Below are positions 9,034-28,690 of a DNA stretch of 64,000 nucleotides, in pieces. This DNA comes from Microbacterium sediminis. Its GTDB lineage: Bacteria > Actinomycetota > Actinomycetes > Actinomycetales > Microbacteriaceae. The stretch is taken from positions 248,001 to 312,000 of the forward strand of contig NZ_CP038256.1 in assembly GCF_004564075.1 (NCBI RefSeq), in the 5' to 3' direction. Numbering within the stretch: the stretch's first letter is position 1; each line of letters begins with the position of its first letter. A program made the translations under genes and the position numbers. The notes below the pieces were generated by a model, which searched no databases, was not told the origin of the DNA, and saw only the letters and a list, made by a program, of their open reading frames with translations.

Positions 9034-9890
9034 CCTCCGGCGCCGTCCGCACCCGCTCCCGCGCGGCCCGCCTCCTCGGCGATGCGCTCGGCGGCTACCT
9101 GCCGCTCGTCGTGGCGACCCTGATCGTCGCGCTGCCGCTCATCTGGATGATCCTGGGCTCCCTCAAGTCGCCGGCCGAGATCATCACGCAGGACCTCGTG
9201 GTGCTGCCGAGCAATCCGAGCCTCGACGCCTATGCCGACGCCTCGGCGCGCATCGACTTCGCCCGCCTCACGCTGAACTCGACGATCGTCACGGTCGTCG
9301 GCGGCGCGATCAAGGTGGTCCTCGCGCTCACCACCGCCTACGCGCTGGTGTTCGTGCAGTTCCCGTTCAAGCGCCTGGTCTTCGGCGTCATCCTCGTCGC
9401 CCTGATGGTGCCGGCGCAGGTCGCGCTCGTGCCGAACTACGTGCTGATCGCGGGGATGGGAGGCGTCAACACGTACTGGGGCATCATCCTCCCGGGGCTG
9501 GGGACCGCCTTCGGCACGTTCCTGCTGCGGCAGCAGTTCCTCGCCCTGCCGAAGGAGATCGTCGAGGCCGCCGAGATGGACGGCGCGGGGCACGTCACGC
9601 GCCTGTTCCGGGTGATCGTCCCGGTGACGACGCCGACCATCGCGACGGTCGCCCTCGTCACGGTCGTGAACGAGTGGAACGACTACCTGTGGCCGCTCAT
9701 CGTGACCAACTCGGGCGACATGATGACGCTCCCCGTCGGGCTGTCCCAGCTCAGCAACAGCGAGGGCGACCTGGGGCAGTACCCGATGCTCATGGCCGGC
9801 GCCGTCGTGGTCATCGTGCCGGTGCTCATCCTCTTCGCCTTCCTGCAGCGGTACATCGTCGCCGGCCTCACCCAGGGCGCCGTGCGCTGA
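9030..9890 (+). CDS. ABC sugar or polyol importer permease, UgpE/MalG type
   Basis: Second membrane subunit of the CUT1 importer. It has 286 residues and six predicted membrane segments, with the EAA loop EAAEMDGAGHVTRLFRVIVP and the conserved NEWNDYLWPLIV segment near the C-terminus. The start overlaps the preceding gene by 4 nt and the solute-binding lipoprotein follows 56 nt later. No ATP-binding subunit is encoded nearby. Actinobacterial CUT1 importers commonly share one MsiK-type ATPase, which is the likely explanation. Confidence 0.88.
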   Translation: MTSGAVRTRSRAARLLGDALGGYLPLVVATLIVALPLIWMILGSLKSPAEIITQDLVVLPSNPSLDAYADASARIDFARLTLNSTIVTVVGGAIKVVLALTTAYALVFVQFPFKRLVFGVILVALMVPAQVALVPNYVLIAGMGGVNTYWGIILPGLGTAFGTFLLRQQFLALPKEIVEAAEMDGAGHVTRLFRVIVPVTTPTIATVALVTVVNEWNDYLWPLIVTNSGDMMTLPVGLSQLSNSEGDLGQYPMLMAGAVVVIVPVLILFAFLQRYIVAGLTQGAVR

Positions 9891-9946
9891 ACGACCTCAG
9901 GCTTCCTTCCCTCCCCGTCATCGCCCCACCCTCGAAAGGACACCGC

Positions 9947-11308
9947 ATGATCCGCCGTCGTCTTCTCCCGCTCGCGGGACTCACCGTGGGAGCCCTCGCG
10001 CTCGCCGCGTGCGCAGGGCCGTCCGTCGCACCCGGCGGCGCCGACGCCGCCGCCTCCGTCGAGGGCGCCGGTGGCGGCCCCGACTTCGCGGGCGTGGAGC
10101 CCGCCGACAGCATCACCTTCTGGTCGGCCAACCCGGGCAACTCGGGCGAGGTCACGCAGGAGATCATCGACGCGTTCACGGCCGAGACGGGCATCGAGGT
10201 CGAGCTGGTGCCGACCGCGAGCTACGAGGAGGTCGCGCAGAAGTTCCAGACCGCCCAGGCCGGCGGCGGGCTGCCCGACGTGGTCACCCTCTCGGACGTG
10301 TGGTGGTTCCGCTTCTACCTGAACGACCAGATCATCCCGCTCGGCAACGTGCTCGAGGCCGCGGACGTGGACACCGACGACTACCGTCCCGTCTTCTACG
10401 GCGACTACACCTACGACGGCGAGCAGTGGGGCGTGCCGTTCGCGCGCTCGACGCCGCTGTTCTACTACAACAAGCAGCTCTGGGAGGCCGCGGGCCTGCC
10501 CGACCGCGGTCCGGAGACGTGGGAGGAGCTGGCGGAGTGGGCGCCGAAGCTGGCCGAGGCGAACGGCGGCAAGCCGGCGTTCGAGTGGCCGGAGATCGCC
10601 GGCTACGCCGGCTGGGTCGCGCAGAACGTGCTGTGGGGCTACGGCGGATCGTGGTCGCTCGAGGACTCGTTCGAGCCGAACACCACGTCGGAGGAGTCGA
10701 TCGCGGCGATGCAGTTCGTGCAGGACTCGGTCTACACCGACAAGTGGGCCGCGCAGGCCTCGACCGACTCGACGCTCTCGCTCGTCGCGGGCGCGTCGGC
10801 CGCCACGATCGCGTCGTCCGGCTCGGGCGTCGGCATCCTCAAGGCCCTCGCGGACGCGGGCGATCCGTTCGAGCTCGGTGCCGCGCCGCTGCCCGGCGGC
10901 CCGGTCGCCACGTCGGGCGTCGTCCCCACCGGCGGCACGGGCGTGTCGATCCCCGCGGGCATCGAGCCGGAGAAGCAGCTGGCCGCCGCGATGTTCATCG
11001 GCTTCCTCACCAACCCCGAGAACGCGGTCAAGTTCTCGGGCGCGACGGGGTACATCCCGGTGCGCAGCTCGGCCGACCCGAGCGCGCTCTACGCGGACAA
11101 CCCGGCGCTCGAGGTGGCCGTCGGCCAGGCCGACGCGACCCGTTCGCAGGACTGGGCGCGCGTGTTCCTCCCGGGCGCCGACCAGGAGCTGAACGCCGCG
11201 TTCTCCGACATCGTCACGCAGCAGGCGGACGTGGCCGAGACGATGAGCACGCTCGGCGACACCCTCGAGAAGATCTACACCTCGCAGGTGGAGCCGAATC
11301 TGAAGTGA
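9947..11308 (+). CDS. ABC importer solute-binding lipoprotein, UgpB-like
   Basis: Extracytoplasmic lipoprotein that captures the substrate for the two preceding permeases. A signal peptide with basic RRR and a lipobox ending LAAC gives a lipidated Cys22. The mature protein has the two-lobed type 1 fold: FWSANPGNSGEV opens the first lobe, GVPFARSTPLFYYNK forms the hinge region, and GYIPVRSSA resembles the UgpB group. The 453-residue length is typical. GAAAGGA lies 6 nt before the ATG. It is the last gene of the importer operon, followed by a hairpin. Substrate not proven. Confidence 0.85.
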   Translation: MIRRRLLPLAGLTVGALALAACAGPSVAPGGADAAASVEGAGGGPDFAGVEPADSITFWSANPGNSGEVTQEIIDAFTAETGIEVELVPTASYEEVAQKFQTAQAGGGLPDVVTLSDVWWFRFYLNDQIIPLGNVLEAADVDTDDYRPVFYGDYTYDGEQWGVPFARSTPLFYYNKQLWEAAGLPDRGPETWEELAEWAPKLAEANGGKPAFEWPEIAGYAGWVAQNVLWGYGGSWSLEDSFEPNTTSEESIAAMQFVQDSVYTDKWAAQASTDSTLSLVAGASAATIASSGSGVGILKALADAGDPFELGAAPLPGGPVATSGVVPTGGTGVSIPAGIEPEKQLAAAMFIGFLTNPENAVKFSGATGYIPVRSSADPSALYADNPALEVAVGQADATRSQDWARVFLPGADQELNAAFSDIVTQQADVAETMSTLGDTLEKIYTSQVEPNLK

Positions 11309-16755: not shown

Positions 16756-17271
16756 GTGACCAACGCCCTCGCCCGAGCCGAGTCGCTCATCGCCGTGACC
16801 CCCGACTACCCGGAACCCGGCGTGCTGTTCCGCGACATCTCGCCGCTCCTCGCCGACGGGCCCGCGCTGCGCGCCGTCGCCGACGAGCTCATCCGCCCGT
16901 TCGACGGGGCGTTCGACATCGTCGGCGGCATCGAGGCGCGCGGGTTTCTGCTCGCCGGCTACGTGTCGGCGCTCACCGGCGTGGGCATGCTGCCCATCCG
17001 CAAGGCCGGCAAGCTGCCGCGCCCGGCCGCCGCGGTCTCGTACGCGCTCGAGTACGGCACGGCCACCATCGAGGGCCCCGACGTGCTCGCCCCGGGCCAG
17101 CGCGTGCTGCTGCTCGACGACGTGCTCGCCACGGGCGGCACGCTCACCGCGGCGCAGGAGCTGGTGCGCGAGCTCGGCGCCGTCGTGGCCGGCTCGGCGG
17201 TGATCCTCGAGCTCGAGGGCCTGCGCGGCCGCGAGCACGCCGGCGACGTGCACACCGTCTTCACCGCGTAG
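16756..17271 (+). CDS. apt: Adenine phosphoribosyltransferase
   Basis: Salvages adenine with PRPP to AMP in the cytoplasm. The 171 residues carry the PRPP-binding loop VLLLDDVLATGGT (about 116-128), the FRDISPLL segment near the N-terminus and IEARGFL, all typical of APRT. The GTG at 16756 is preferred for its upstream TACCCT box. It is convergent with a purine permease gene across a strong shared hairpin, which fits a role in base salvage. Confidence 0.95.
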   Translation: MTNALARAESLIAVTPDYPEPGVLFRDISPLLADGPALRAVADELIRPFDGAFDIVGGIEARGFLLAGYVSALTGVGMLPIRKAGKLPRPAAAVSYALEYGTATIEGPDVLAPGQRVLLLDDVLATGGTLTAAQELVRELGAVVAGSAVILELEGLRGREHAGDVHTVFTA

Positions 17272-17329: not shown

Positions 17330-18784
17330 TCAGACGCCGAGCGCGGCGCGGATCGGGTCGAGCGTGAAGTACACGACGAACAGCGCCGAGGCGAGCCACA
17401 TCAGCCAGTGGATCTCGCGCGCCTTGCCCTGGGCGAGCTTGACGATCACGTAGGCGATGAAGCCGGCGCCGATGCCGTCCGAGATCGAGTAGGTGAACGG
17501 CATGATCGCGATCGTCAGGAACGCCGGGATCGCGACCTCCATCTTCGTCCAGTCGATGCCGGAGATCTGAGTCATCATGAGGAACCCGACGAGCACGAGC
17601 GCGGGGGCCGCGGCCTCGTAGGGCACCAGCGCCACGAGCGGCGACAGGAACGTGGCCAGCAGGAAGGCGATGCCCGTCACCACGGACGCCAGGCCCGTGC
17701 GCGCGCCGTCGCCGACGCCCGAGGTCGACTCGACGTACGAGGTGTTCGACGACACCGACCCCACGCCACCGGCGACCGCGGCGAGCGAGTCGACGATGAG
17801 GATGCGGCGGGTCTGCGGCGGGTTGCCCTTCTCGTCGAGCAGCTTCGCCTCGGCGCCGACGGCGACCATCGTGCCCATCGTGTCGAAGAAGTCGGCCAGC
17901 AGCAGCGTGAAGATCAGCAGCACGGCGGTGACGATGCCGATCCGATCCCACGAGGTGAGGATGTTGAACTGACCCAGCAGCGAGAAGTCGGGGGCGCTCA
18001 CGACGCCCGTGAACCGCGGCGCCGAGTTCCAGCCGCCGGGGTTGTCCTCGCTCGCGGCGCCGATGCGCAGCGTGGCCTCGAGGATCACGGCCAGGACGGT
18101 GGCCACGAGGATCGCGATGAGCATGGCGCCGCGCACCTTGCGCACCCACAGCACGATGGCCAGCACGAGGCCGACGACGAAGACGAGGATCGGCCAGGTG
18201 CCGAGGTTGCCCAGGGCCAGGATCGTCGATCCGGTCTCGACGAAGCCGGCGTTGGTGAGGCCGATGAGCGTGATGAACAGGCCGATGCCCACGCCGATCG
18301 CGACCTTCAGCTCGCGCGGCACGGCGTTGAACACCGCCTCGCGGAACCCGGTCAGCACGAGCAGCAGGATGATGAGGCCCTCGATGACCACGAGGCCCAT
18401 CGCGTCGGCCCACGTCACGCCCGGCAGGCCGGCGATCGAGAACGCGACGACGGCGTTGAGGCCGAGACCGGCGGCCAGCGCCATGGGGTAGTTGGCGACG
18501 ACGCCCATGAGGATCGTCATGATGCCGGCGATCAGCGCCGTGGCAGACGCGATCATCTGCACGTTGGGCGCATCACCGCCGCCGAGGAAGCTGCCGGTGC
18601 CGTCGGGCACCGTGCCGATGATCAGCGGGTTCAGGATCACGATGTAGCACATCGCGAAGAAGGTCACCAGGCCGCCGCGCACCTCGGTGCCGATGGTGGA
18701 GCCGCGCTCGGTGATCTTGAAGAAACGGTCGATCGCGCCGCCCCGTCCGGGGGCGCGCGTCACCGTGGAGGTCTCGTTCGCCAT
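17330..18784 (-). CDS. NCS2 family purine permease (AzgA/PbuG type)
   Basis: Proton-coupled importer of hypoxanthine, guanine or adenine; the exact base cannot be read from sequence. The 484 residues have about 12-14 predicted membrane segments. Family motifs include GLVTFFAMCYIVILNP near the N-terminus, AAGLGLNAVVAFS, GIGLFITLIGL, LLLADFFDTMGTMVAVG and SVSSNTSYVESTSGVGDGARTGL. The start is the ATG at 18784, where the homology begins, although the upstream SD is weak. It lies 68 bp downstream of the XRE-cupin regulator on the same strand and may be its target or co-transcribed. Convergent with apt. Confidence 0.9.
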   Translation of the reverse strand: MANETSTVTRAPGRGGAIDRFFKITERGSTIGTEVRGGLVTFFAMCYIVILNPLIIGTVPDGTGSFLGGGDAPNVQMIASATALIAGIMTILMGVVANYPMALAAGLGLNAVVAFSIAGLPGVTWADAMGLVVIEGLIILLLVLTGFREAVFNAVPRELKVAIGVGIGLFITLIGLTNAGFVETGSTILALGNLGTWPILVFVVGLVLAIVLWVRKVRGAMLIAILVATVLAVILEATLRIGAASEDNPGGWNSAPRFTGVVSAPDFSLLGQFNILTSWDRIGIVTAVLLIFTLLLADFFDTMGTMVAVGAEAKLLDEKGNPPQTRRILIVDSLAAVAGGVGSVSSNTSYVESTSGVGDGARTGLASVVTGIAFLLATFLSPLVALVPYEAAAPALVLVGFLMMTQISGIDWTKMEVAIPAFLTIAIMPFTYSISDGIGAGFIAYVIVKLAQGKAREIHWLMWLASALFVVYFTLDPIRAALGV

Positions 18785-18852
18785 GAGAGAAATTCTTTCA
18801 TGCCCGTATTGCCTCCTCGTTTCCGGGCAGGTAGAGGGAGGCGTCGCCGGCG

Positions 18853-19422
18853 TCAGGCGGGGTGCACGATGAGCCAGCGGGCGACGACCGGCTCGGTGCC
18901 CGTGTTGTGCAGGCGGTGCGGCCGGCTGCACGGGTACGTCACGGAGTCGCCGGCGCGCAGCACGACGATCTCGTCGTCGAAGTCGATCGTGAGCTCGCCC
19001 GACAGGACGTGCCCGACCTCGTAGCCCTCGTGCCGGAAGAGCCCGTCCTTCGTCGCGGTGCTTCCCGGCGGATACACCGACTCGAAGTAGTCCACGCCCG
19101 GCGTCTCGGCTGGCGACAGTCGGCGGAACACGACGCCGCTTCCCAGCTCGACATAGTCGACATCGGCGGCGCGCTCGATCGCGACGTCGGACGGCTCGTC
19201 CGGGCGCGCGGTGAGGACGGCCGACATCGGCACGCCGAGCGCGTCGGTGATCGTGATCAGGCGGGACACGCTCGGCTGCATGACGCCGCGCTCGATCTGC
19301 GAGACCGCGCTCGTCGAGACGCCGATGCGACGGGCGAGCGCGGCCGCCGACAGCCCCGCCCGCAGGCGCACCTCGCGGAGGCGTCGTCCGACATGCATCG
19401 GGGCGTCGGAAGGGGCGGGCAC
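18853..19422 (-). CDS. XRE-family regulator with C-terminal cupin domain
   Basis: Transcription factor with an N-terminal helix-turn-helix (about 10-65: LREVRLRAGLSAAALARRIG, then STSAVSQIERGVMQPSV) and a C-terminal cupin_2 barrel (about 115-185: HEGYEVGHVLSGELTIDFD) that would sense a small ligand. The GTG at 19422 is favoured because TACGAT lies 6 nt upstream and no SD exists; the ATG at 19398 is an alternative. It diverges from the allantoin operon, and two near-identical palindromes at 19499-19541 in the shared gap are likely its operators. The ligand is inferred to be a purine or ureide from context only. Confidence 0.85.
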   Translation of the reverse strand: MPAPSDAPMHVGRRLREVRLRAGLSAAALARRIGVSTSAVSQIERGVMQPSVSRLITITDALGVPMSAVLTARPDEPSDVAIERAADVDYVELGSGVVFRRLSPAETPGVDYFESVYPPGSTATKDGLFRHEGYEVGHVLSGELTIDFDDEIVVLRAGDSVTYPCSRPHRLHNTGTEPVVARWLIVHPA

Positions 19423-19428
19423 AGGGGG

Positions 19429-19434
19429 ATCGTA
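19429..19434 (-). promoter_or_regulatory. -10 box of the XRE-cupin gene, leaderless geometry
   Basis: On the minus strand, TACGAT then 6 nt then GTG. It sits about 65 bp from the first GTGAAG palindrome. Confidence 0.5.
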
Positions 19435-19498
19435 ACCGGCCCCGGCCGCCGGAGACGGTTTTACATCGCCGCAACACACGCGACACAGGAACGGGAGC

Positions 19499-19541
19499 GT
19501 GAAGCGATAGCTTCACACCCCAGGTGAAGTGATCGCTTCAC
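19499..19541. promoter_or_regulatory. Two tandem operators upstream of the allantoin operon
   Basis: GTGAAGCGATAGCTTCAC (19499-19516) and GTGAAGTGATCGCTTCAC (19524-19541) are each near-perfect 18-bp palindromes with a shared GTGAAGYGATNGCTTCAC form and centres 25 bp apart. They lie between the XRE-cupin gene and the NCS1 permease gene and are the best candidates for the regulator's binding sites. Confidence 0.8.
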
Positions 19542-19612: not shown

Positions 19613-21301
19613 GTGCCACACAACGGATCTTCCCTCAGCTCACCGCTCACCAAGCCGCAGGACGTCATCGAGGCCGCCGGTTTCCCCGCCGGGTCGGGCA
19701 ACGTGCGCCCCGGCTACGACCGTCGCCTGGCGAACGAGGATCTCGCCCCGCTGCGCAAGCAGAAGTGGTCGGCGTACAACATCTTCGCGTTCTGGATGAG
19801 CGACGTGCACTCCGTCGGCGGATACGTCACCGCCGGATCGCTCTTCGCCCTCGGCATCGCCAGCTGGCAGGTGCTCATCGCCCTCGTCGTCGGCATCGTC
19901 ATCGTCCAGTGCTTCGCGAACCTCGTCGCCAAGCCGTCGCAGCGGACGGGCGTCCCGTACCCCGTCGTCAACCGCTTCATCTTCGGCGTCAAGGGCGCGA
20001 ACATCCCCGCGGTCATCCGCGGCGTCATCGCGATCGCCTGGTACGGCGTGCAGACGTTCCTCGCCGCGGAGTCGCTCAACATCGTCATCCTCAAGTTCAT
20101 CCCGGGCTCGGCCGCGCTCGTCGAGCCGAGCTTCCTGGGCCTGAACGCCCTGGGCTGGATCTCCTACGCGATCCTGTGGGTGGCGCAGGCGGCGGTGTTC
20201 TGGAACGGGATGGAGGCCATCCGCCGGTTCATCGACTGGGCGGGCCCCGCGGTGTACGTGGTGATGATCATCCTCGCGGTCTATCTCGTCTCGCGGGCGG
20301 GATGGGAGAACATCAGCTTCAGCCTCTCCTCGGGGGAGCCCCTCGGCTTCGTGGAGTCCCTTCCGGTGATGCTGACCGCGATCGCCATCGTGGTGTCGTA
20401 CTTCTCGGGCCCCATGCTGAACTTCGGCGACTTCGCCCGCTACGGCAAGAGCTTCACGGCGGTCAAGCGCGGCAACTTCTGGGGCCTGCCGATCAACTTC
20501 CTCTTCTTCTCGATCCTCACGGTCCTCACGGCGTCGGCGACCGTGCCGGTGTTCGGCGAGCTCATCACCGATCCGATCCACACGGTCGAGCGCATCGACC
20601 ACTGGTTCGCGATCCTGCTCGGTGGCCTGACCTTCGTCACGGCCACGGTCGGCATCAACATCGTCGCGAACTTCATCTCGCCGGCGTTCGACTTCTCGAA
20701 CGTCGCGCCCCACCGCATCTCGTGGCGCGCCGGCGGAATGATCGCGGCCGTGGGGTCGGTCATCCTCACGCCGTGGAACTGGTACAACAACGACGAGGCG
20801 ATCCACTACACCCTCGGCATCCTGTCGGCCCTCATCGGCCCGCTCTTCGGCGTGCTCATCGCCGGGTACTACGTCGTGGCGCGGCAGCGCATCAAGGTCG
20901 ACGACATGTACACGATGTCCGAGAACGGTGCCTATTGGTACCGCAAGGGCTACAACGTCAACGCCCTCGCCGCGGTGCTCGGCGCCGGCGTGCCGACGAT
21001 CCTCACCGCGATCGTGCCGAAGTCGCTCGTCTTCGCGGGCGTCGCCCCGGCCGGCGCCGGCGCGATCAGCGATTTCAGCTGGTTCATCGGCTGCGGGCTG
21101 GGCTTCGCGATCTTCACGATCCTCGAGCGGGTCCGCCCCCGCGTCCCGCGGCTGGAGGGCGAGGGCGGCGTCTCGGACGGCACCGTCGCGGAGCCCGTCG
21201 AGGGGTATCCCGACACCGCCACCGCCGCGATCGCGGTGACCGAGGCGGCGCGGATCGTCGCGCAGCCCGCATCCGAAGAGACGACGACGACGAAGGCCTG
21301 A
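19613..21301 (+). CDS. NCS1 family permease, probable allantoin or ureide transporter
   Basis: Membrane importer of the nucleobase-cation-symport-1 family, which includes PucI (allantoin), Mhp1 (hydantoins) and CodB (cytosine). The 562 residues have 12 predicted membrane segments. NCS1 features include NEDLAPLRKQKWSAYNIFAFWMSD near the N-terminus and the LTPWNWYNNDEAI region before TM9-10. The GTG at 19613 is preferred because GAAAGG lies 8 nt upstream and homology starts soon after. It is first in a seven-gene run of allantoin catabolism genes, and the racemase GTG begins 1 nt after its stop. Regulation by the upstream GTGAAG palindromes is inferred. Confidence 0.88.
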   Translation: MPHNGSSLSSPLTKPQDVIEAAGFPAGSGNVRPGYDRRLANEDLAPLRKQKWSAYNIFAFWMSDVHSVGGYVTAGSLFALGIASWQVLIALVVGIVIVQCFANLVAKPSQRTGVPYPVVNRFIFGVKGANIPAVIRGVIAIAWYGVQTFLAAESLNIVILKFIPGSAALVEPSFLGLNALGWISYAILWVAQAAVFWNGMEAIRRFIDWAGPAVYVVMIILAVYLVSRAGWENISFSLSSGEPLGFVESLPVMLTAIAIVVSYFSGPMLNFGDFARYGKSFTAVKRGNFWGLPINFLFFSILTVLTASATVPVFGELITDPIHTVERIDHWFAILLGGLTFVTATVGINIVANFISPAFDFSNVAPHRISWRAGGMIAAVGSVILTPWNWYNNDEAIHYTLGILSALIGPLFGVLIAGYYVVARQRIKVDDMYTMSENGAYWYRKGYNVNALAAVLGAGVPTILTAIVPKSLVFAGVAPAGAGAISDFSWFIGCGLGFAIFTILERVRPRVPRLEGEGGVSDGTVAEPVEGYPDTATAAIAVTEAARIVAQPASEETTTTKA

Positions 21302-21302
21302 C

Positions 21303-22076
21303 GTGCGCATCACCCTGATCAACCCCAACACCTCGCGGGCGATGACCGAGAAAGTCGCGGTCGCCGCCCGCGAGGTGGCGGCTCCCGATGTCGAGATCCT
21401 CGCCGTGTGCCCCGCACCCGGCGAGGGCCCCGACGCGATCGAGAGCCACTACGACGAGGTCCGCGCGAGCGCCGCGATCCTCGACCTCGTCTCGCGTGAC
21501 CTCGCCGCGGGCGGATCGGACGCCTACGTCATCGCCTGCTTCGGCGACCCGGGCGTCGACGCGGTGCGCGAGCTCGTCGACGTACCGGTCGTCGGCATCG
21601 CCGAGGCGGCCATGCACGTCGCGTCGATGGCGGGGCGCACCTTCGGCATCGTCACCACGCTCTCGCGAACGCTCGGCCGGGCCGAGGACCTCGTGCTCCG
21701 TCACGGCTTCGAGCGCGCCTGTGTGTCGGCGTGCGGCACGGGCATCCCCGTGCTCGCGCTCGAACGGGAGGATCCCGCGGCGATCGAGCGCATCGCCGGA
21801 TGGTGCGAGCGCGTGGTTCGGGAGGACGGGGCGGATGCCGTGGTGCTCGGCTGCGCCGGGATGGCCGACCTGTGCCGCGAGCTGTCGGAGCGCGTCGGGG
21901 TGCCCGTCGTCGACGGCGTTGCCGCCGGTGTCGGCCTCGTGCAGGCCATGGTCCGCATGGGTGTGGGCACGAGCAAGCGCGACGAGTACGCGCGGCCGCC
22001 GCGGCTCGCGCCGGAACACCGCGCCGCGGGCGACGACACATCGGCGACACACGAGCCCGTTAGCCTGACCGCGTGA
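21303..22076 (+). CDS. Hydantoin/allantoin racemase (Asp/Glu racemase family)
   Basis: Cofactor-independent racemase, probably interconverting R- and S-allantoin (HpxA type) so that both enantiomers enter the pathway. The 257 residues show the family opening ITLINPNTSRAMTEK and the two catalytic cysteines: Cys79 in IACFGDPG and Cys184 in VLGCAGMA. GIAEAAMHVASM is conserved among hydantoin racemases. The GTG start lies 1 nt after the permease stop, and the stop overlaps the allantoinase start (GTGA). The C-terminal 25 residues are variable. Hydantoin racemase activity is the alternative, but the genes around it favour allantoin. Confidence 0.88.
   Translation: MRITLINPNTSRAMTEKVAVAAREVAAPDVEILAVCPAPGEGPDAIESHYDEVRASAAILDLVSRDLAAGGSDAYVIACFGDPGVDAVRELVDVPVVGIAEAAMHVASMAGRTFGIVTTLSRTLGRAEDLVLRHGFERACVSACGTGIPVLALEREDPAAIERIAGWCERVVREDGADAVVLGCAGMADLCRELSERVGVPVVDGVAAGVGLVQAMVRMGVGTSKRDEYARPPRLAPEHRAAGDDTSATHEPVSLTA
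22061..22066 (+). promoter_or_regulatory. Possible internal -10 box before allantoinase
   Basis: TAGCCT lies 6 nt before the allB GTG although the site is inside the 3' end of the racemase gene. It could give a leaderless internal transcript, but the gene is also reachable by coupling. Confidence 0.35.
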
Positions 22077-23389
22077 ACCGCGCGCTCCCGTCCTCCGTCG
22101 CCGCGCGCCGGGTGTTCCTCGACGGAGGCTTCCGTGCCGCCACCGTGCGCATCGCGAACGGCGTCGTCGCGGCCGTCGACGCATTCGACGCCAGGGCCGA
22201 CGTCGTCGTCGACGACGGACACGTGCTGCTGCCGGGTCTCGTCGACTCCCACGTGCACTTCAACGAGCCCGGCCGCACGGGCTGGGAGGGCTTCGCCACG
22301 GGAACGGCGGCCGCGGCCGCCGGCGGGGTCACGACCGTCGTCGAGATGCCGCTGAACTCCATCCCGGTCACGACGACGCCCGCGGCGCTCGCGGCGAAGC
22401 GCGAGGCGGCCGCGGGTCAGCTGGCCGTCGACATCGCGTACTGGGGCGGCGCCGTCCCCGAGAACCTCGGCTCGCTCGACACCCTGCTGGACGCGGGCGT
22501 CGTGGGGGTGAAGTGCTTCCTCGCGCCGAGCGGCATCGACGAGTTCGGCCACCTCGATGCCGACCAGCTGGAGCGCGCCCTCGCGGAGCTGGCCGCGCAT
22601 GACGGGCTCCTCATCGCTCACGCCGAGCTGCAGGAGCACCTGGGCGACGCGCACGGTCCGGTCTTCACCGACTTCGTGGCCTCGCGACCGCCCGCCGCCG
22701 AGGTCGAGGCGATCCGTCGCGTGATCGACGCGGCGCGCCGGACCGATGCGCGGGCGCACATCGTGCACGTGGCCGCGGCCGGGGCCCTCGATCTCGTGCG
22801 GGCGGCGAAGGCGGAGGGCGTCCGGCTCACGATCGAGACCTGCCCGCACTACCTCACGCTGCGCGCGGAGGAGGTGCCCGACGGGCAGGGGAGGTTCAAG
22901 TGCTGCCCGCCGATCCGCGACGGCGCGAACCAGGACCTGCTGTGGGAGGGCGTGCTGGACGGCACGATCGACGCCATCGTCAGCGACCACTCACCGGCCA
23001 CCGCGGAGCTCAAGGACAACGCCGACCTCGGCGCGGCGTGGGGCGGGATCTCCGGCGTCCAGACCGGTCTGCGCGCCGTCTGGACCGAGGCGCGGCGACG
23101 CGGGATCGCTCTGGAGCGCATCGTGCCGCTGTTCACGACCGGACCGGCCGGCCTGGTGCGACTCGACCGCGGCAGCATCGCCACCGGCGCCCCCGCCCAC
23201 CTCGCGGTCTTCGACCCCGAGGCCGAGCGCACCCTCACGGTGGACGAGCTCGCCTATCGGAACCGGATGTCGCCCTGGGTGGGGCGGCGCCTGCGGGGCG
23301 CCGTCGTCGAGACCTATCTTCGCGGTGAGCGGATCTATACGCAGGGGGCGGGGCTCCTCTCCCGGAACGGACGCGAGGTGCTGGTGTGA
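22073..23389 (+). CDS. allB: Allantoinase (cyclic amidohydrolase)
   Basis: Hydrolyses S-allantoin to allantoate in a binuclear metal centre. The 438 residues carry His60 and His62 (DSHVHFNEPG), the metal-bridging lysine at 147 (GVKCFLAPSG), later His residues (LIAHAE, HIVHVA) and the catalytic Asp in IVSDHSP. NEPG after HVHF and the CCPPIRD motif are characteristic of allantoinase versus dihydropyrimidinase. The GTG start overlaps the racemase stop and the stop overlaps the next gene (GTGA). Confidence 0.93.
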   Translation: MNRALPSSVAARRVFLDGGFRAATVRIANGVVAAVDAFDARADVVVDDGHVLLPGLVDSHVHFNEPGRTGWEGFATGTAAAAAGGVTTVVEMPLNSIPVTTTPAALAAKREAAAGQLAVDIAYWGGAVPENLGSLDTLLDAGVVGVKCFLAPSGIDEFGHLDADQLERALAELAAHDGLLIAHAELQEHLGDAHGPVFTDFVASRPPAAEVEAIRRVIDAARRTDARAHIVHVAAAGALDLVRAAKAEGVRLTIETCPHYLTLRAEEVPDGQGRFKCCPPIRDGANQDLLWEGVLDGTIDAIVSDHSPATAELKDNADLGAAWGGISGVQTGLRAVWTEARRRGIALERIVPLFTTGPAGLVRLDRGSIATGAPAHLAVFDPEAERTLTVDELAYRNRMSPWVGRRLRGAVVETYLRGERIYTQGAGLLSRNGREVLV

Positions 23390-24567
23390 CACGCGACGAC
23401 ACGATGACGCGCAACCGATTCGGCACGGGGCCGGCGCCCGACTTCGCGGCGCTGCCGATCCTGCAGCCGGGGGTTTTCCCACCCGGAGCCGAGCCCGCGG
23501 AAGGCGTGGCGTACCTCCCCGCGAGCCCCGAGACGGTGCTCTGGGGACGCCTGCCGGGACGCCGCGATGCGCCGGTGCTGACGATCGCCTCGGGCGACAC
23601 GGTCGTGATCGACACCGTCAGTCACGAGGGGATCCTCCCGGACCAGGGGCAGGACCCGGCGGCCTTCTTCGCCCAGCACGGCGTCGCTGCCGAGGCGGTG
23701 CTCGACGACGCGATCGCGATCGCCTCCCGCGCGCCGCGCGACGCGGTGGCGGACGGGCCCCACGTGATCACGGGCCCGATCCGCGTCGAGGGCGCGCGCC
23801 CGGGCGACGTGCTGCGCATCGGCATCGAGCGCCTCGAGCCCCGGGTGCCGTACGGCGTGATCAGCAACCGGCACGGCAGGGGAGCCCTGCCCGCCGTGCT
23901 GCCGAGAGACGGGCAGACGGTCAGTGTGTTCGCGCCGGTCGAGGAGCGTGCGGGCGCGCTGTGCGGCACCCTGCCGCGCACGGAGGGCGGCACGCGCGAC
24001 GTCGCGTTCCCGCTGGCGCCATTCCTCGGCACGATCGGCGTCGCCCCCGACAGCGACGAGCGGCCCCACTCGGTGCCCCCGTCCGACTTCGGCGGGAACA
24101 TCGACATCCGGCTCCTCGTCGAGGGCACCTCGCTCTACCTGCCCGTGCAGGTCGACGGCGCCCTCGCGTACGTCGGCGACCCCCACTTCGCGCAGGGCGA
24201 CGGCGAGGTGGCGCTCACCGCGCTTGAGGCGTCGCTGCGCGCCACCCTGACGTTCGAGGTCGTCCCGGCCGACGTCGCGCGCCGGGAGTTCGGTGCTCTT
24301 GCCGGGCCGCTCGTGCGCACCCCGGACTACCTCGTGCCGACGGGGCTCGACCCCGACCTCGGAGAGGCGATGCGCAAGGCGGTCCGCGCGGCGCTCGATC
24401 TGATCCGGGCACGGTGGGGGATGGACGAGCATCTTGCCTACGCGTACCTCTCGGCGGCAGCCGACTTCGACATCTCGCAGGTGGTCGATGTGGTGTGCGG
24501 TGTCCACGCGCGCATCCGGGAGGCCGACTTCCCCGCTCTCGCGGTCGCGGGCGGAGCCGGCGCATGA
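23386..24567 (+). CDS. Acetamidase/formamidase family protein (FmdA type)
   Basis: Zinc-type amidase family that hydrolyses small amides such as formamide or acetamide to ammonia. The 393 residues contain the central HVITGPIRVEGARPGDVLRIGIE region and FLGTIGVAPDS, followed by the PPSDFGGNIDIRLL and LPVQVDGALAYVGDPHFAQGDGEV segments typical of FmdA proteins. Start and stop each overlap the neighbouring genes by 4 nt, so it is an integral part of the allantoin operon. Its natural substrate here is unknown. Since PucG makes oxalurate, an amide such as oxamate is a reasonable guess, not a demonstrated one. Confidence 0.85.
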   Translation: MTRDDTMTRNRFGTGPAPDFAALPILQPGVFPPGAEPAEGVAYLPASPETVLWGRLPGRRDAPVLTIASGDTVVIDTVSHEGILPDQGQDPAAFFAQHGVAAEAVLDDAIAIASRAPRDAVADGPHVITGPIRVEGARPGDVLRIGIERLEPRVPYGVISNRHGRGALPAVLPRDGQTVSVFAPVEERAGALCGTLPRTEGGTRDVAFPLAPFLGTIGVAPDSDERPHSVPPSDFGGNIDIRLLVEGTSLYLPVQVDGALAYVGDPHFAQGDGEVALTALEASLRATLTFEVVPADVARREFGALAGPLVRTPDYLVPTGLDPDLGEAMRKAVRAALDLIRARWGMDEHLAYAYLSAAADFDISQVVDVVCGVHARIREADFPALAVAGGAGA

Positions 24568-26144
24568 CCGCGCGCGAGATCCCCGGTGCGGCCGATGTGC
24601 CGGCGGACCTGCTCGAGGCGCTCTTCGCCTACGAGGCCGCGATCCTCGCCGACGACCTCGACGAGCTCGATCGCTGGTTCCTCGACTCCCCGGCGACGTT
24701 GCGCGGCGACGACGCCGGCCTGCTCGTCGGCCACGACGCGATCAGCGCGTTCCGCGGCCTGCGCGGGGGAGTGGCCGACCGCGTGATCGAGCGGATCGAG
24801 TATCGCCCCCTCGGCGACGGCATCGCCCTCGTGGTGTCGGTCTCGCGCTTCACCATCGGCGGGCGCGGGTTGCAGACGCAGGTGTGGCAGCGGACCGCGG
24901 ACGGCTGGCGCATCACCGCCGCACACGTCTCGGGGCGGCCGCAGCCGTTCAACCGCGCGATGTGGCGCACGGTGGGCGATCCCCTGTTCCAGGGCGCATG
25001 GCAGGGGCCCCTCGCGGGGCTCACGGTCGCCGTGAAGGACCTCTTCGCGATCAAGGGCTACCGGATCGGCGCGGGCAACCCGACGTATGTCGACAGCGTG
25101 GCTCCCGAGCCGCGCACCGCGCCGGCCGTCGCCGATCTGCTGCGGGGCGGGGCGTCGCTGCGCGGCATAGCGCGCACCGACGAGTTCGCGTACTCGATCG
25201 CCGGAGACAACGCCCACTACGGCACGCCGCCCAACGGCGCACTGCCCGGCGCGCTGCCCGGAGGCTCGTCGTCGGGACCGGCGAGCGCGGTGGCGACGGG
25301 GCAGGCCGACATCGGGCTCGCCACCGACACCGCGGGCTCGATCCGCGTGCCCGCGTCGTATCAGGGGCTGTGGGGACTGCGCACGACGCACAACCTCGTG
25401 CCGCGCGCGGGGCTGCTTCCGCTGGCCCAGTCGTTCGACACGATCGGCTGGATCACCCGCGACGGCGAGACGCTGCAGCGCGTGGCCGAGTGGTGCCTGT
25501 CGTACGACGGTTCGGCGTCCACCGAGCGCGTGTTCGGCGCGTCGAGCGGAGATCTGCCGTGGGAGTTCCGCGTGCCGACCGAGGTGCTCGACGCCGTCGA
25601 GCCGGACACGCGCGCGGCGTTCGAGGAGTTCCTCGACACCCTGGGGGCGCCCGTGCAGCGTGTCCCGATCGGCGCGCTCGTCGGCTACCAGGAGCCCTTC
25701 CGCGTGGTGCAGGCCGCGGAGGCCTGGCGCAACAACGGGGACTGGATCCGCGAGCACCCCGATGCGCTCGGTCCCGCGGTCGCCGCGCGGTTCCGCGACG
25801 CGGCCCGGGTGACGGCCGACGACGAGCGCGCCGCCCGGGCGGCCCTCGAACCGCTCAAGGCCCGGCTCGACGACATCCTCGGCGGGGCGCAGCTCATCCT
25901 GCCGACGGTGCCGGGCCCCGCCCCGATGCGCACATCCGACGGCGCGCAGGTCGATGCCACCCGCGCGGCCACCCTGCGCATGACCACGCCCGCCGCCGTC
26001 GCCGGGGTGCCGGCCGTGTCGATCCCGCTGCTCACCGTGCCCTCGCCGCTCGGTCCTGCGCCCGTGGGCGTGTGCGTGATCGCCCGCGCCGAGACCGACA
26101 TCGCGCTCGTCCGGCAGGCCCGCCGGATCGCCTCGCTCATCTGA
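24564..26144 (+). CDS. Fused AtzH-like (DUF3225/HpxZ) domain and AtzE-like amidase (HpxY)
   Basis: Two-domain protein of 526 residues. Residues 9-124 form a SnoaL-like cone domain of the AtzH/HpxZ (DUF3225) family (FAYEAAILADDLDELDRWFLD, then RTADGWRITAAHVS). Residues 125-526 are an amidase-signature enzyme with Lys158 (VAVKDLFA), the cis-serine in GGSSSGP (235-237) and the nucleophile Ser259 (TDTAGSIRVPAS). In Klebsiella hpxWXYZ and in cyanuric acid clusters these two families are separate genes. Here they are one polypeptide, and no gene for the small HpxX/AtzG subunit is seen. The start overlaps the FmdA stop (ATGA), and the aminotransferase follows after 18 nt. Substrate inferred to be oxalurate or a related ureide. 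Confidence 0.88.
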   Translation: MTAREIPGAADVPADLLEALFAYEAAILADDLDELDRWFLDSPATLRGDDAGLLVGHDAISAFRGLRGGVADRVIERIEYRPLGDGIALVVSVSRFTIGGRGLQTQVWQRTADGWRITAAHVSGRPQPFNRAMWRTVGDPLFQGAWQGPLAGLTVAVKDLFAIKGYRIGAGNPTYVDSVAPEPRTAPAVADLLRGGASLRGIARTDEFAYSIAGDNAHYGTPPNGALPGALPGGSSSGPASAVATGQADIGLATDTAGSIRVPASYQGLWGLRTTHNLVPRAGLLPLAQSFDTIGWITRDGETLQRVAEWCLSYDGSASTERVFGASSGDLPWEFRVPTEVLDAVEPDTRAAFEEFLDTLGAPVQRVPIGALVGYQEPFRVVQAAEAWRNNGDWIREHPDALGPAVAARFRDAARVTADDERAARAALEPLKARLDDILGGAQLILPTVPGPAPMRTSDGAQVDATRAATLRMTTPAAVAGVPAVSIPLLTVPSPLGPAPVGVCVIARAETDIALVRQARRIASLI

Positions 26145-26162
26145 TCCGCCCGAGGAAGAACC

Positions 26163-27386
26163 ATGACCCGCCCCACCCCGCTCGATCCCCCCGCCCGCCT
26201 GCTCATGGGGCCCGGCCCCATCTCCGCGTACCCGCGCGTGCTGCGCGCCATGTCGGCACCGCTCGTGGGCCAGTACGACCCGTTCATGACCGGCGCGATG
26301 GGCGAGGTGCAGGAGCTGTATCGCGAGGTGTGGGCGACGCGCAACGAGCAGACGTTCGTCATCGACGGCACGTCGCGGGCGGGGATCGAGGCGGCGCTGG
26401 TCTCGCTCATCCGGCCCGGCGATCGCGTGCTCGTTCCCGTGTTCGGGCGGTTCGGCCACCTTCTCGCCGAGATCGCGGAGCGCGCGCTCGCCGAGGTCCA
26501 CACGATCGAGGTCGAGTGGGGTCAGGTCGTGCCGGTGTCGATGATCGAGGAGGCGATCGTCCGCGTGAGGCCGACGCTCCTCGCGCTCGTGCAGGGCGAC
26601 ACGTCGACGACGATGAACCAGCCGCTCGACGAGATCGGCGCGCTGTGCGAGAAGCACGGCGTGCTGTTCTACTGCGACGCCACCGCGTCGCTCGGCGGCA
26701 ACGACTTCGAGGCCGACCGCTGGGGTCTCGACGCCGCGACCGCGGGGCTGCAGAAGTGCCTCGGCGGCCCGAGCGGCTCGAGCCCCATCACGCTGTCGGA
26801 TCGCGCCGTCGAGGTGATCCGTTCGCGCGCCCGCGTCGAGGCCGGGATCAGAGAGGCGGGCGACGAGAGCGCCGCGGACTTCATCCGCAGCAACTACTTC
26901 GACCTCGGCATGATCATCGACTACTGGGGGCCGCGGCGCCTCAACCACCACACGGAGGCCACGAGCATGCTCTACGCCGCCCGCGAGTGCGCCGCCGTGC
27001 TGCTCTCCGAGGGCCGCGCGAACGTCATCGCGCGGCACCGCCTCGCCGGCGACGCGATGCTCGCGGGCGTGCGGGGCCTCGGACTGACGGTGTTCGGCGA
27101 CGTGGCGCACAAGATGAACAACGTCGTCGCCGTCGAGATCCCCGATGGGGTTCCCGGGGACGCCGCGCGTCAGGCGATGCTCGAGGACTTCGGCATCGAG
27201 ATCGGCACGTCGTTCGGTCCGCTGCACGGCCGCGTCTGGCGCATCGGCACCATGGGCTACAACGCCCGCAAGGATGCCGTGCTGACCACGCTCGCCGCCC
27301 TCGAGCAGGTGCTGCGCCGCCACATCCCGGTGCCCGCCGGCGGCGGCGTCGACGCCGCCCTCGACGTGTACCGCGTGTCCGCATGA
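26163..27386 (+). CDS. pucG: (S)-ureidoglycine-glyoxylate aminotransferase
   Basis: PLP enzyme (class V, alanine-glyoxylate aminotransferase fold) that transfers the amino group of ureidoglycine to glyoxylate, giving oxalurate and glycine. The 407 residues include LLMGPGPISAYPRVLRAMS at the N-terminus, the SRAGIEAALVSL cofactor region and Lys198 (GLQKCLGGPSG) for the Schiff base. ADFIRSNYFDLGMIIDYWG and NHHTEATSMLYA are closer to PucG than to generic serine-glyoxylate enzymes. It lies between the amidase and allantoate amidohydrolase genes, and its stop overlaps the allC ATG. Confidence 0.92.
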   Translation: MTRPTPLDPPARLLMGPGPISAYPRVLRAMSAPLVGQYDPFMTGAMGEVQELYREVWATRNEQTFVIDGTSRAGIEAALVSLIRPGDRVLVPVFGRFGHLLAEIAERALAEVHTIEVEWGQVVPVSMIEEAIVRVRPTLLALVQGDTSTTMNQPLDEIGALCEKHGVLFYCDATASLGGNDFEADRWGLDAATAGLQKCLGGPSGSSPITLSDRAVEVIRSRARVEAGIREAGDESAADFIRSNYFDLGMIIDYWGPRRLNHHTEATSMLYAARECAAVLLSEGRANVIARHRLAGDAMLAGVRGLGLTVFGDVAHKMNNVVAVEIPDGVPGDAARQAMLEDFGIEIGTSFGPLHGRVWRIGTMGYNARKDAVLTTLAALEQVLRRHIPVPAGGGVDAALDVYRVSA

Positions 27387-28690
27387 CCGACGCGCGGCTC
27401 GCCGGGATCGCCCCGGAGGTCTTCGCCGCGGCGGCCCGCCGGGTGATGGCGCGGTGCGACGAGCTCGCCCGCGTCACGGCCGACGACGGTGCGATCACCC
27501 GCGTGTACCTCTCGCCCGAGCACGCGCGCGTCAACCGCCTCGCCGCAGAGTGGATGCGCGAGGTCGGCATGACGACGCGCCAGGACCCGGCGGGCAACCA
27601 GCTCGGCCGCCTCGCCGCGGCCGACCCGGACGCCCCGGCGCTGATGCTCGGCTCTCACCTCGACACCGTGATCGACGCGGGCCGCTTCGACGGCATCATC
27701 GGCGTGCTCATGGCTATCGAGGTCGTGCGCGTGCTGCGGGTGCCCGGCGCCGTCGACGGATCGTGGCGCAGCCCGTTCCCCTTCGCGATCGAGGTCGCCG
27801 CGTTCAGCGATGAGGAGGGCACGCGCTTCGGCAAGGCCCTGCTCGGCTCGTCCGCCGTGGCCGGCGCGTGGGACGACGACTGGTGGGCCCTCACCGACTC
27901 CGACGGCATCACCCTGCGCGAGGCCTACCGCGAGTTCGGGCTCGACCCCGGCCGCATCGGCGAGGCGGCGCGCACGGGCGACCAGCTCGTCGGCTATCTC
28001 GAGGCGCACATCGAGCAGGGGCCCGAGCTCGACCGGCGCGGCGAGGCGCTCGCCGTGGTGTCGTCGATCGCGTCGGCGCGGCGCTTCCAGCTCACGGTCG
28101 AGGGCGAGGCGCGCCACGCGGGCGGCACGCCCTACGACATGCGGCGCGACGCGCTGCTCGGCGCCTCGGAGGCGGCGCTCGCCGTGGAGCGGATCTGCGC
28201 CGCCGAGCACCACATCATCGGCACGGTGGGTCGGCTCGAGGCGTTCCCGGGCGCCGTCAACGTCGTCCCCGGCGAGGCGCGCTTCAGCCTCGACCTGCGC
28301 GGCGAGTTCGACGAGGCCCGGGACCGCGTGTGGCAGTCGCTCTCGCGCGAGCTGGACGAGATCATGGGCCGCCGCGGCCTCCGCTGGAGCGCCCGGGAGA
28401 TGCACTCGGCACCGGCGCTGTTCTGCGATCCACTGCTGCAGGACGTCGTACGCGCCGGCATCGGATCGACCCTCGGCTCCCGGCCGGCGGAGCCGATCAC
28501 GCTCTTCAGCCCCGCGGGCCACGACGGCATGACGATCGGCTCGGTCGCGCCGGTGGGGATGCTCTTCCTGCGCAATCCCGACGGCATCAGCCACCACCCC
28601 GACGAGGCGGTGAGCGTGGCGGACGTCGCCGTCGGCCTGCGTGCGTTCGCCGAGGCGGTGGCGCATCTCGGCGCCGAGCCGGCGCGCTGA
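27383..28690 (+). CDS. allC: Allantoate amidohydrolase (M20 family)
   Basis: Hydrolyses allantoate to ureidoglycine, CO2 and ammonia using two metal ions; also called pucF. The 435 residues show the metal ligands in GSHLDTVIDAGRFDG and FSDEEGTRFG, EAHIEQGPELD, and a dimerisation domain with EARHAGGTPYDMRRDAL. The C-terminal PAGHDGMTIG and GISHHPDE motifs separate AllC from peptidases. It is the last gene of the seven-gene operon that starts at 19613; a 129-bp gap follows before the SDR gene. Confidence 0.93.
   Translation: MTDARLAGIAPEVFAAAARRVMARCDELARVTADDGAITRVYLSPEHARVNRLAAEWMREVGMTTRQDPAGNQLGRLAAADPDAPALMLGSHLDTVIDAGRFDGIIGVLMAIEVVRVLRVPGAVDGSWRSPFPFAIEVAAFSDEEGTRFGKALLGSSAVAGAWDDDWWALTDSDGITLREAYREFGLDPGRIGEAARTGDQLVGYLEAHIEQGPELDRRGEALAVVSSIASARRFQLTVEGEARHAGGTPYDMRRDALLGASEAALAVERICAAEHHIIGTVGRLEAFPGAVNVVPGEARFSLDLRGEFDEARDRVWQSLSRELDEIMGRRGLRWSAREMHSAPALFCDPLLQDVVRAGIGSTLGSRPAEPITLFSPAGHDGMTIGSVAPVGMLFLRNPDGISHHPDEAVSVADVAVGLRAFAEAVAHLGAEPAR

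Follow-up and report, generated by a model that had tools for sequence, protein, structure and literature searches.

A seven-gene allantoin operon of Microbacterium sediminis encoding an AtzH-amidase fusion and an FmdA-family protein that may together convert oxalurate to oxalate

The window analysed here, a stretch of 64,000 nucleotides of the Microbacterium sediminis contig NZ_CP038256.1 (positions 248,001 to 312,000), carries at 19613-28690 seven plus-strand open reading frames, which are spaced by gaps of 1 or 18 bp or overlap by 4 bp (Table 1). These frames tile the interval with minimal gaps and overlaps, in agreement with the operon and the coordinates that an earlier sequence-only reading had put forward. 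For the permease, the longest open reading frame begins at 19529, and 19613 is the start chosen by both that reading and the gene caller; the protein scores below two allantoin-permease equivalog cut-offs (273.1 against 620 and 235.4 against 800).

Table 1. Features of the operon and of the region upstream of it, in window coordinates.
Feature	Coordinates	Strand	Basis
XRE + cupin regulator, divergent	18853..19479	-	PF01381, PF07883
Near-palindrome GTGAAGCGATAGCTTCAC, putative operator copy 1	19499..19516	.	direct reading
Near-palindrome GTGAAGTGATCGCTTCAC, putative operator copy 2	19524..19541	.	25 bp from copy 1
NCS1-family permease, probably importing allantoin	19613..21301	+	PF02133 288.7 bits
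Asp/Glu/hydantoin racemase family, putative allantoin racemase	21303..22076	+	PF01177 198.2 bits
Allantoinase AllB	22073..23389	+	TIGR03178 529.4 bits, above the cut-off of 357.85
FmdA/AmdA-family amidohydrolase, proposed oxamate amidohydrolase	23386..24567	+	PF03069 106.4 bits
AtzH-like + amidase-signature fusion, proposed oxalurate amidohydrolase/decarboxylase	24564..26144	+	PF11533, PF01425
PucG-type ureidoglycine-glyoxylate aminotransferase	26163..27386	+	PDB 3nnk 580 bits, 3isl 427 bits
AllC, allantoate amidohydrolase	27383..28690	+	NF006775 497 bits, above the cut-off of 479

The divergently encoded XRE-cupin protein, which has a homologue at 16 of 80 relative loci, is a possible local regulator of the operon. 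When the genome was scanned with a pattern built from the two near-palindromes themselves, allowing up to three mismatches, the pair alone matched with fewer than three; with the pattern reversed as a control, 13 sites matched within the same limit, so that sites with three mismatches carry no meaning. As the two sites themselves supplied the pattern, shuffles of the window serve as a rough guide only. A single copy of the operator-like site lies at the equivalent place in loci L043 and L044, and the site is absent from nine other loci tested. Promoter and terminator scans yielded nothing above chance.

The assignments of AllB, AllC and PucG made in the sequence-only reading are borne out, the first two by scores above equivalog cut-offs and the third by matches to solved structures: the aminotransferase aligns over residues 3-404 with 3nnk, a full-length close match to a PucG/HpxJ-type member, and also matches 3isl, a PucG structure, so that its predicted activity is ureidoglycine-glyoxylate transamination. 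Because these three are well supported, oxalurate is the expected product. Judged by their families, the permease, the racemase, AllB, AllC and PucG would convert allantoin to oxalurate and glycine, and the operon as a whole would import allantoin and remove its nitrogen.

The fusion protein consists of an AtzH-like domain (residues 10-123) and an amidase-signature domain (residues 147-514), for which the names HpxZ and HpxY had been suggested. The first name holds at the level of the family, as the N-terminal half is an AtzH-like (DUF3225) domain (PF11533, 72.4 against a cut-off of 27), but not at the level of the HpxZ equivalog (NF033625, 60.6 against 135). The second, HpxY/AtzE, had to be given up: the amidase half, recognized by PF01425 with 170.6 bits, falls short of the AtzE/HpxY cut-offs (TIGR02715, 146.8 against 425.75; PRK09201, 147.3 against 461), and its best curated model is PRK08310, the cut-off of which is likewise not reached (358.9 against 391). 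PRK08310 matches all 61 fusions compared, with a best E-value of 3e-118 against 2e-55 for the AtzE models. Among solved structures, 2dc0 is the best match by sequence, followed by AtzE (6c62) with malonamidase E2 behind it, and by Foldseek malonamidase E2 is the nearest fold after 2dc0; the predicted models (pLDDT 93.9 for the fusion) are used here in support of folds only. The alignment of 61 fusions comprises that of the window and 60 of 69 dereplicated ones, the nine omitted including L035, which has an internal deletion inside its AtzH domain. The Lys-Ser-Ser triad of the amidase (K158, S235, S259) is kept in 61/61. The fusion of the window, aligned to 6bjt, has the equivalents of the catalytic Tyr22 and Arg46 of AtzH, and the pocket equivalents of Tyr22, Arg46, Arg63, Arg66, Arg73 and Gln108 are present in 60-61 of the 61 proteins, the exceptions being Arg96 (13/61) and Gln106 (51/61); the list of pocket and catalytic residues is that given in PMC6219798. 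The fusion is not rare but common, with both domains present in all of the best 120 relatives listed.

The protein encoded next to the fusion shares PF03069 (cut-off 27) and its fold with the FmdA/AmdA acetamidase/formamidase family, but fails the formamidase equivalog (NF045496, 68.2 against 500). Its model (pLDDT 92) has 3b9t as the nearest solved fold, which is also that of 2ii1 and 2f4l. An Arg-His pair, R162-H163, is invariant (54/54) and sets the protein apart from the aligned 2f4l, 2ii1 and 3tkk, in which it is absent; 5ubu has the His. Enzymes of this family act on simple primary amides, and oxamate is such an amide.

We consider it probable that the fusion and the FmdA-family protein take oxalurate via oxamate to oxalate, with neither HpxW nor AllFGH. 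The amidase domain would release ammonia from the terminal amide of oxalurate to give N-carboxyoxamate, the AtzH-like domain would decarboxylate this to oxamate, and the FmdA-family protein, replacing the unrelated HpxW, would hydrolyse oxamate to oxalate and ammonia. The operon, the families, the conserved residues, the co-occurrence with PucG, the adjacency and the gene fusions form the computed basis; from there we infer all substrates and the order of the steps. In the main rival scheme, which appears unlikely, the roles are reversed: FmdA would act on oxalurate to give N-carboxyoxamate, AtzH would yield oxamate, and the amidase would hydrolyse it. The Foldseek neighbour malonamidase E2, whose substrate is a small amido-acid, would suit such a role of the amidase, yet AtzE outranks it by sequence, and the usual substrates of the FmdA family favour oxamate for FmdA. 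The known precedent also has the amidase before AtzH (PMC6219798), since AtzE acts first and AtzH is thought to decarboxylate 1,3-dicarboxyurea; the assignment of oxalurate to the amidase and of oxamate to FmdA is modelled on this pair.

Searching genomes for the fusion beside pucG had been suggested as a check in the sequence-only reading. Among 248 genomes of the window's order, counted raw and uncorrected for kinship, 43 have PucG, 54 the amidase gene, 61 FmdA and 41 all three; the amidase gene and FmdA each occur in 42 of the 43 PucG genomes (both in 41), and in 12 and 19, respectively, of the 205 genomes without PucG. Fisher p values for the co-occurrence range from 2e-31 to 6e-39 and are not counted as evidence, because the genomes are related and hence not independent. 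Within the window's genus, both genes are found in 6/6 PucG genomes and either one in 0/4 others, and 41 of the 43 PucG genes have the amidase gene and/or FmdA within 10 kb. Three hits of the PucG search (E 6e-70 to 2e-61, 38-43% identity) were judged to be different aminotransferases and are omitted from these counts. FmdA was counted at E 4e-89 or better, with the addition of G535, where the match is split in two, and other weaker or split hits (e.g. G392, G407, G413, G427, G525) were left aside; the amidase count takes in all 54 hits at E<=1e-40, including G384 (38%) and G566 (partial domain), some of which lack the AtzH domain. A random phylum-wide sample of 296 genomes was set aside as too sparse for orthologues, its hits being nearly all other amidases.

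These numbers bear on a further possibility, that the true substrate of the module is some other ureide or amide (biuret-like, formamide or hydantoin-derived) and that its link with PucG stems from general nitrogen scavenging. Ten of the 248 genomes do carry the amidase gene and FmdA without PucG, and an isochorismatase-family gene lies near the module in 5/80 named loci and also in L034 and L037, most of these loci having cupin, creatininase-family and ABC-transporter genes as well. The near-constant presence of both genes in PucG genomes and their proximity to PucG make this explanation improbable. In the named loci, where families of neighbouring genes were assigned from representatives, PucG lies within the locus in 67/80; 47 loci have HIU hydrolase, 46 OHCU decarboxylase and 30 uricase. 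The 13 with no visible PucG include at least three on short contigs, one (L122) that nevertheless has uricase, and five with the isochorismatase-family gene, so that the module may act on another substrate.

In 68/80 named loci the fusion has FmdA upstream at a distance of at most 500 bp. The genomes of ten FmdA-less loci were searched (an eleventh, L054, is truncated by the contig start and lies outside this search): six have FmdA elsewhere at >=52% identity, that of L080 has only a 34% relative, and none was found in those of L075, L102 and L119. No GGT-family protein fills the slot of FmdA among ten upstream or neighbouring frames at eight loci without adjacent FmdA. One of these frames, in L100, belongs to the CinA family, some members of which are amidases, but the same genome has FmdA elsewhere. 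In the Nocardioides loci L102 and L119 the fusion is kept, FmdA is absent and AllG is present, accompanied in L119 by AllH and an AllF-like gene with a CoA-ligase domain. AllG would here replace exactly the step that FmdA has under reversed roles; however, both loci keep the AtzH pocket intact apart from Arg96, and with reversed roles it would have no substrate there.

Other enzymes of the pathway were sought in the window's genome. AllG (PF06545) has no match, with a positive E. coli control, so the absence of a carbamoyltransferase, claimed earlier for the operon, extends genome-wide for AllG. As also claimed, no HpxX/AtzG-like small subunit is encoded by the seven genes; genome-wide, the HpxX model NF033624 gave zero matches, in the controls as well, and the absence thus applies to the operon alone. 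There is no GGT-family gene among the seven either, and the only such protein of the genome, encoded about 290 kb from the operon, matches 6j3a with 637 bits against 81 bits for 5hft, which we take to be HpxW; a GGT-family match was found in 31/50 genomes, this one included, and none in 19/50. Hydrolysis of oxalurate by the amidase to oxalate and urea, with FmdA catalysing a side reaction, would be chemically feasible for an amidase-signature enzyme, and urease is present in 14 of the 50 genomes searched. The other 36, that of the window included, have none and would lose this nitrogen unless urea amidolyase is present, and urea release would explain neither the FmdA-amidase fusions nor the kept AtzH pocket, so that we hold this the least probable of the alternatives.

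Natural fusions also join the proposed partners. FmdA is joined to the amidase, with no AtzH domain, in several species and six protein clusters, and FmdA, AtzH and amidase are joined in six others, as in the single polypeptide of Mycetocola; P0127, P0140, P0153 and P0172 were rejected as fusions because their domains align in part only and the remainder resembles another frame. The domain order of the triple fusion, FmdA-AtzH-amidase, is collinear with the reversed roles. In G479, G375 and G062, all of which have PucG, and in L065, the AtzH domain is absent or damaged, and no intact copy was found elsewhere in any of the four; together with the FmdA-amidase fusions, this suggests that decarboxylation is dispensable or spontaneous there. 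Overall, the core idea of the sequence-only reading, that the fusion and FmdA clear oxalurate, receives strong comparative support, while which enzyme takes which substrate is what we infer.

To our knowledge, only two enzyme sets have been assigned to oxalurate, AllFGH and the Klebsiella hpx genes, and no description of an AtzH-amidase plus FmdA route was found in the literature searched. Like hpxWXYZ, the oxalurate branch of uric acid breakdown in Klebsiella, the operon combines an AtzH-family (HpxZ) and an amidase-signature (HpxY) component with allantoate amidohydrolase and transaminase genes, for a presumed conversion of oxalurate via oxamate to oxalate; unlike it, the AtzH domain is fused, the amidase is of a different subfamily, the operon contains no HpxX-like gene, and the place of the GGT-family HpxW is taken by an FmdA-family enzyme. 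With the atzDGEHF operon for cyanuric acid in Pseudomonas sp. ADP, the present operon shares the pairing of an amidase with AtzH, of which it keeps the catalytic Tyr22/Arg46 equivalents; it differs in lacking AtzD, AtzG and AtzF, in its link to allantoin genes and in an amidase below the AtzE model cut-offs. The oxamate carbamoyltransferase AllFGH of E. coli acts on oxalurate and gives oxamate (2024, PMC11326118), as the proposed module would, but it belongs to other protein families and makes carbamoyl phosphate.

On balance, and slightly less surely than for the locus itself, the AtzH-amidase, together with FmdA as a new type of oxamate amidohydrolase, may constitute a third oxalurate route across Actinomycetes, free of both carbamoyl phosphate and HpxW. 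If this is true, the Mycetocola polypeptide would carry oxalurate all the way to oxalate, with two ammonia and carbon dioxide as the other products, HpxW would be joined by an unrelated second hydrolase of oxamate, AtzH would gain a role beyond triazine breakdown, and a very common actinobacterial pair, annotated as 'AtzH-like domain-containing protein' and acetamidase/formamidase, would acquire a function.

The allantoin operon reported from the sequence-only reading was borne out by ORF reading in strand, span and tight spacing, with seven genes joined by 4-bp overlaps or short gaps. AllB and AllC scored above the NCBIfam equivalog cut-offs, and the aminotransferase matched both 3nnk, named as a ureidoglycine-glyoxylate aminotransferase (580 bits), and PucG 3isl (427 bits) over almost the entire length. 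Oxalurate and glycine are the expected products of AllB, AllC and a PucG-type aminotransferase. Adjoining the operon is a second purine-related patch, in which a gene resembling adenine phosphoribosyltransferase by eye lies close to a purine/uracil-type permease.

Coordinates of features in the window
Feature	Position	Strand	Details
Adenine phosphoribosyltransferase-like gene	16756-17271
Purine/uracil-type permease	~17336-18826		PF00860
Near-palindrome pair	19499-19541		two 18-bp sites, 25 bp apart
Allantoin operon	19613-28690	+	seven genes
FmdA gene	23386-24567	+	SNRHGRG motif
Fusion gene	24564-26144	+	AtzH-like, residues 10-123; amidase-signature, residues 147-514
PucG gene	26163-27386	+

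To follow the genes beyond the window, 248 genomes of its order were searched with PucG, the amidase gene and FmdA, which were found in 43, 54 and 61 genomes, respectively, and together in 41, counts that ignore kinship. Amidase and FmdA were each present in 42 of the 43 PucG genomes, the exceptions being G432 and G375, whose assemblies comprise roughly 700 and 1060 contigs, and in 12 and 19 of the 205 genomes without PucG. One or both lay no more than 10 kb from PucG in 41 of 43 genomes, and the two were at most 300 bp apart in 35 of the 51 genomes holding both. In the window's genus, all six PucG genomes carried both genes, and none of the four others carried either. A search for the fusion beside pucG, as originally proposed, found PucG in 67 of 80 fusion loci, the best 80 of 296 confirmed in one scan of named genomes, some clipped by contig ends. 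These loci span Microbacterium, Cellulomonas, Curtobacterium, Agreia, Naasia, Frigoribacterium, Demequina, Nocardioides, Blastococcus, Bifidobacterium, Amycolatopsis and others. FmdA was present in 69 loci, at most 500 bp upstream of the fusion in 68, and 6 of 10 searched genomes with an FmdA-less locus held an FmdA at least 52% identical elsewhere. Of the further operon genes, AllC occurred in 65 loci, AllB in 49, the NCS1 permease in 21 and the racemase in 19; HIU hydrolase (47), OHCU decarboxylase (46) and uricase (30) were assigned to family from one representative each. The module is common in Actinomycetes, and genomics strongly supports an oxalurate module with predicted enzyme functions.

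Among the matches listed, the named proteins nearest to the fusion come from Microbacterium species (80-83% identity). The original interpretation stands in outline; its AtzE/HpxY label for the amidase is not supported by curated models. PRK08310 was the best model for the window's amidase half, yet under its cut-off, and matched 61 of 61 fusions scanned, with a best E-value of 3e-118 versus 2e-55 for the better of two AtzE models. The triad K158/S235/S259 is present in all 61 aligned fusions. Of the residues assigned to the AtzH pocket in PMC6219798, numbered as in 6bjt by hand from the alignment, the window's fusion retains Tyr22, Arg46, Arg63, Arg66, Arg73, Arg96, Gln106 and Gln108, and Phe94 is changed. 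Six pocket residues are conserved in 60-61 of 61 fusions; the counterpart of Gln106 is kept in 51 and that of Arg96 in only 13. Such a pattern would fit a substrate such as N-carboxyoxamate, with one carboxylated end as in dicarboxyurea and a different other end. In FmdA, R162 and H163 are invariant (54/54); these positions are occupied differently in the aligned acetamidases 2f4l, 2ii1 and 3tkk, and 5ubu shares the His, making the pair a candidate carboxylate-binding site.

By analogy with AtzE followed by AtzH, the amidase would strip ammonia from oxalurate at its ureido end, the AtzH-like domain would then decarboxylate the product, and FmdA would cleave oxamate. Microbacterium kunmingense (L065) encodes a single 793-aa ORF, FmdA then amidase, with no AtzH domain. 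A search with this protein gave 752 matches, the best 120 of which contained six clusters of near full-length FmdA-amidase fusions (P0122-P0126 and P0128) and six of FmdA-AtzH-amidase triple fusions (P0131-P0136), from Mycetocola where species names were legible; four further candidates were rejected as frame-damaged. Of all the evidence, these natural fusions point most strongly to FmdA, AtzH and amidase working on successive intermediates. G479 (L149), G375 and L065 lack the AtzH domain or carry it damaged, and in G062 (L035) it has an internal deletion; amidase and FmdA persist in L035, L149 and L065. The domain was not found at the G050 locus, with one weak 28-bit match elsewhere in that genome. 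No substitute was found in the carriers with a missing or damaged domain, therefore the AtzH step can be spared. A reverse assignment, in which FmdA acts first and the amidase later, is a less likely alternative: the domain order of the triple fusions is collinear with it, and the FmdA-less Nocardioides hold an enzyme family, AllG, that would replace FmdA under that scheme.

AllG was found in 6 of 50 searched genomes, including both FmdA-less Nocardioides (L102, L119), which combine it with AtzH-amidase. A CoA-ligase-domain (AllF-like) gene was found with AllG in the L102 genome; in that of L119 such a gene and AllH adjoin AllG. Of the two AllG loci (L146, L147), both with the CoA-ligase-domain gene, AllH was looked for and found at L147, and a PucR-like regulator was seen nearby by eye. 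The sequence-only reading saw no carbamoyltransferase gene and named such a set elsewhere in the strain as evidence against its proposal; a genome-wide search found neither AllG nor urease in the window's genome. Its one GGT-family protein matched 6j3a far better than 5hft, which we take to be HpxW, and 19 of 50 genomes had no GGT-family match (31 did, the window's included); oxamate hydrolases of the HpxW type are therefore not the rule here. Klebsiella HpxW was reportedly studied by Hicks and Ealick in 2016.

No paper describing the route was found among the open-access full texts searched, judged by title or abstract start. We drew on PMC12625717, PMC6219798, PMC11326118, PMC5270733 (for Klebsiella HpxW), PMC3560190 and PMC6022934. 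In the Enterobacteriaceae ggt-atzG-atzE-atzH clusters described in PMC6219798, the genes are separate and near an allantoate amidohydrolase, a context regarded there as little evidence for a specific function.

AtzH-amidase also clusters with an isochorismatase-family hydrolase (L034, L037, L110, L112, L113, L114 and L121), with cupin and creatininase-family genes in L034, L110, L112, L113 and L114 and a luciferase-like monooxygenase in L112; the substrate there may be another ring-opened ureide. In L037 (G031, 8222-11008) the domains are unfused; a small ORF that is AtzH-like stands in a row with genes of the isochorismatase and cupin cluster and an amidase ORF, possibly the ancestral arrangement.

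An XRE-cupin regulator gene is divergent from the operon, and between them lies a pair of near-palindromes. In the 2.92 Mb genome these are the sole sites with fewer than three mismatches to a pattern itself derived from them. One copy occurs at the matching position in M. suaedae (L043) and M. excoecariae (L044), and none in nine further loci tested. The pair is a possible operator of the XRE-cupin regulator; if so, the regulator might control this operon alone.
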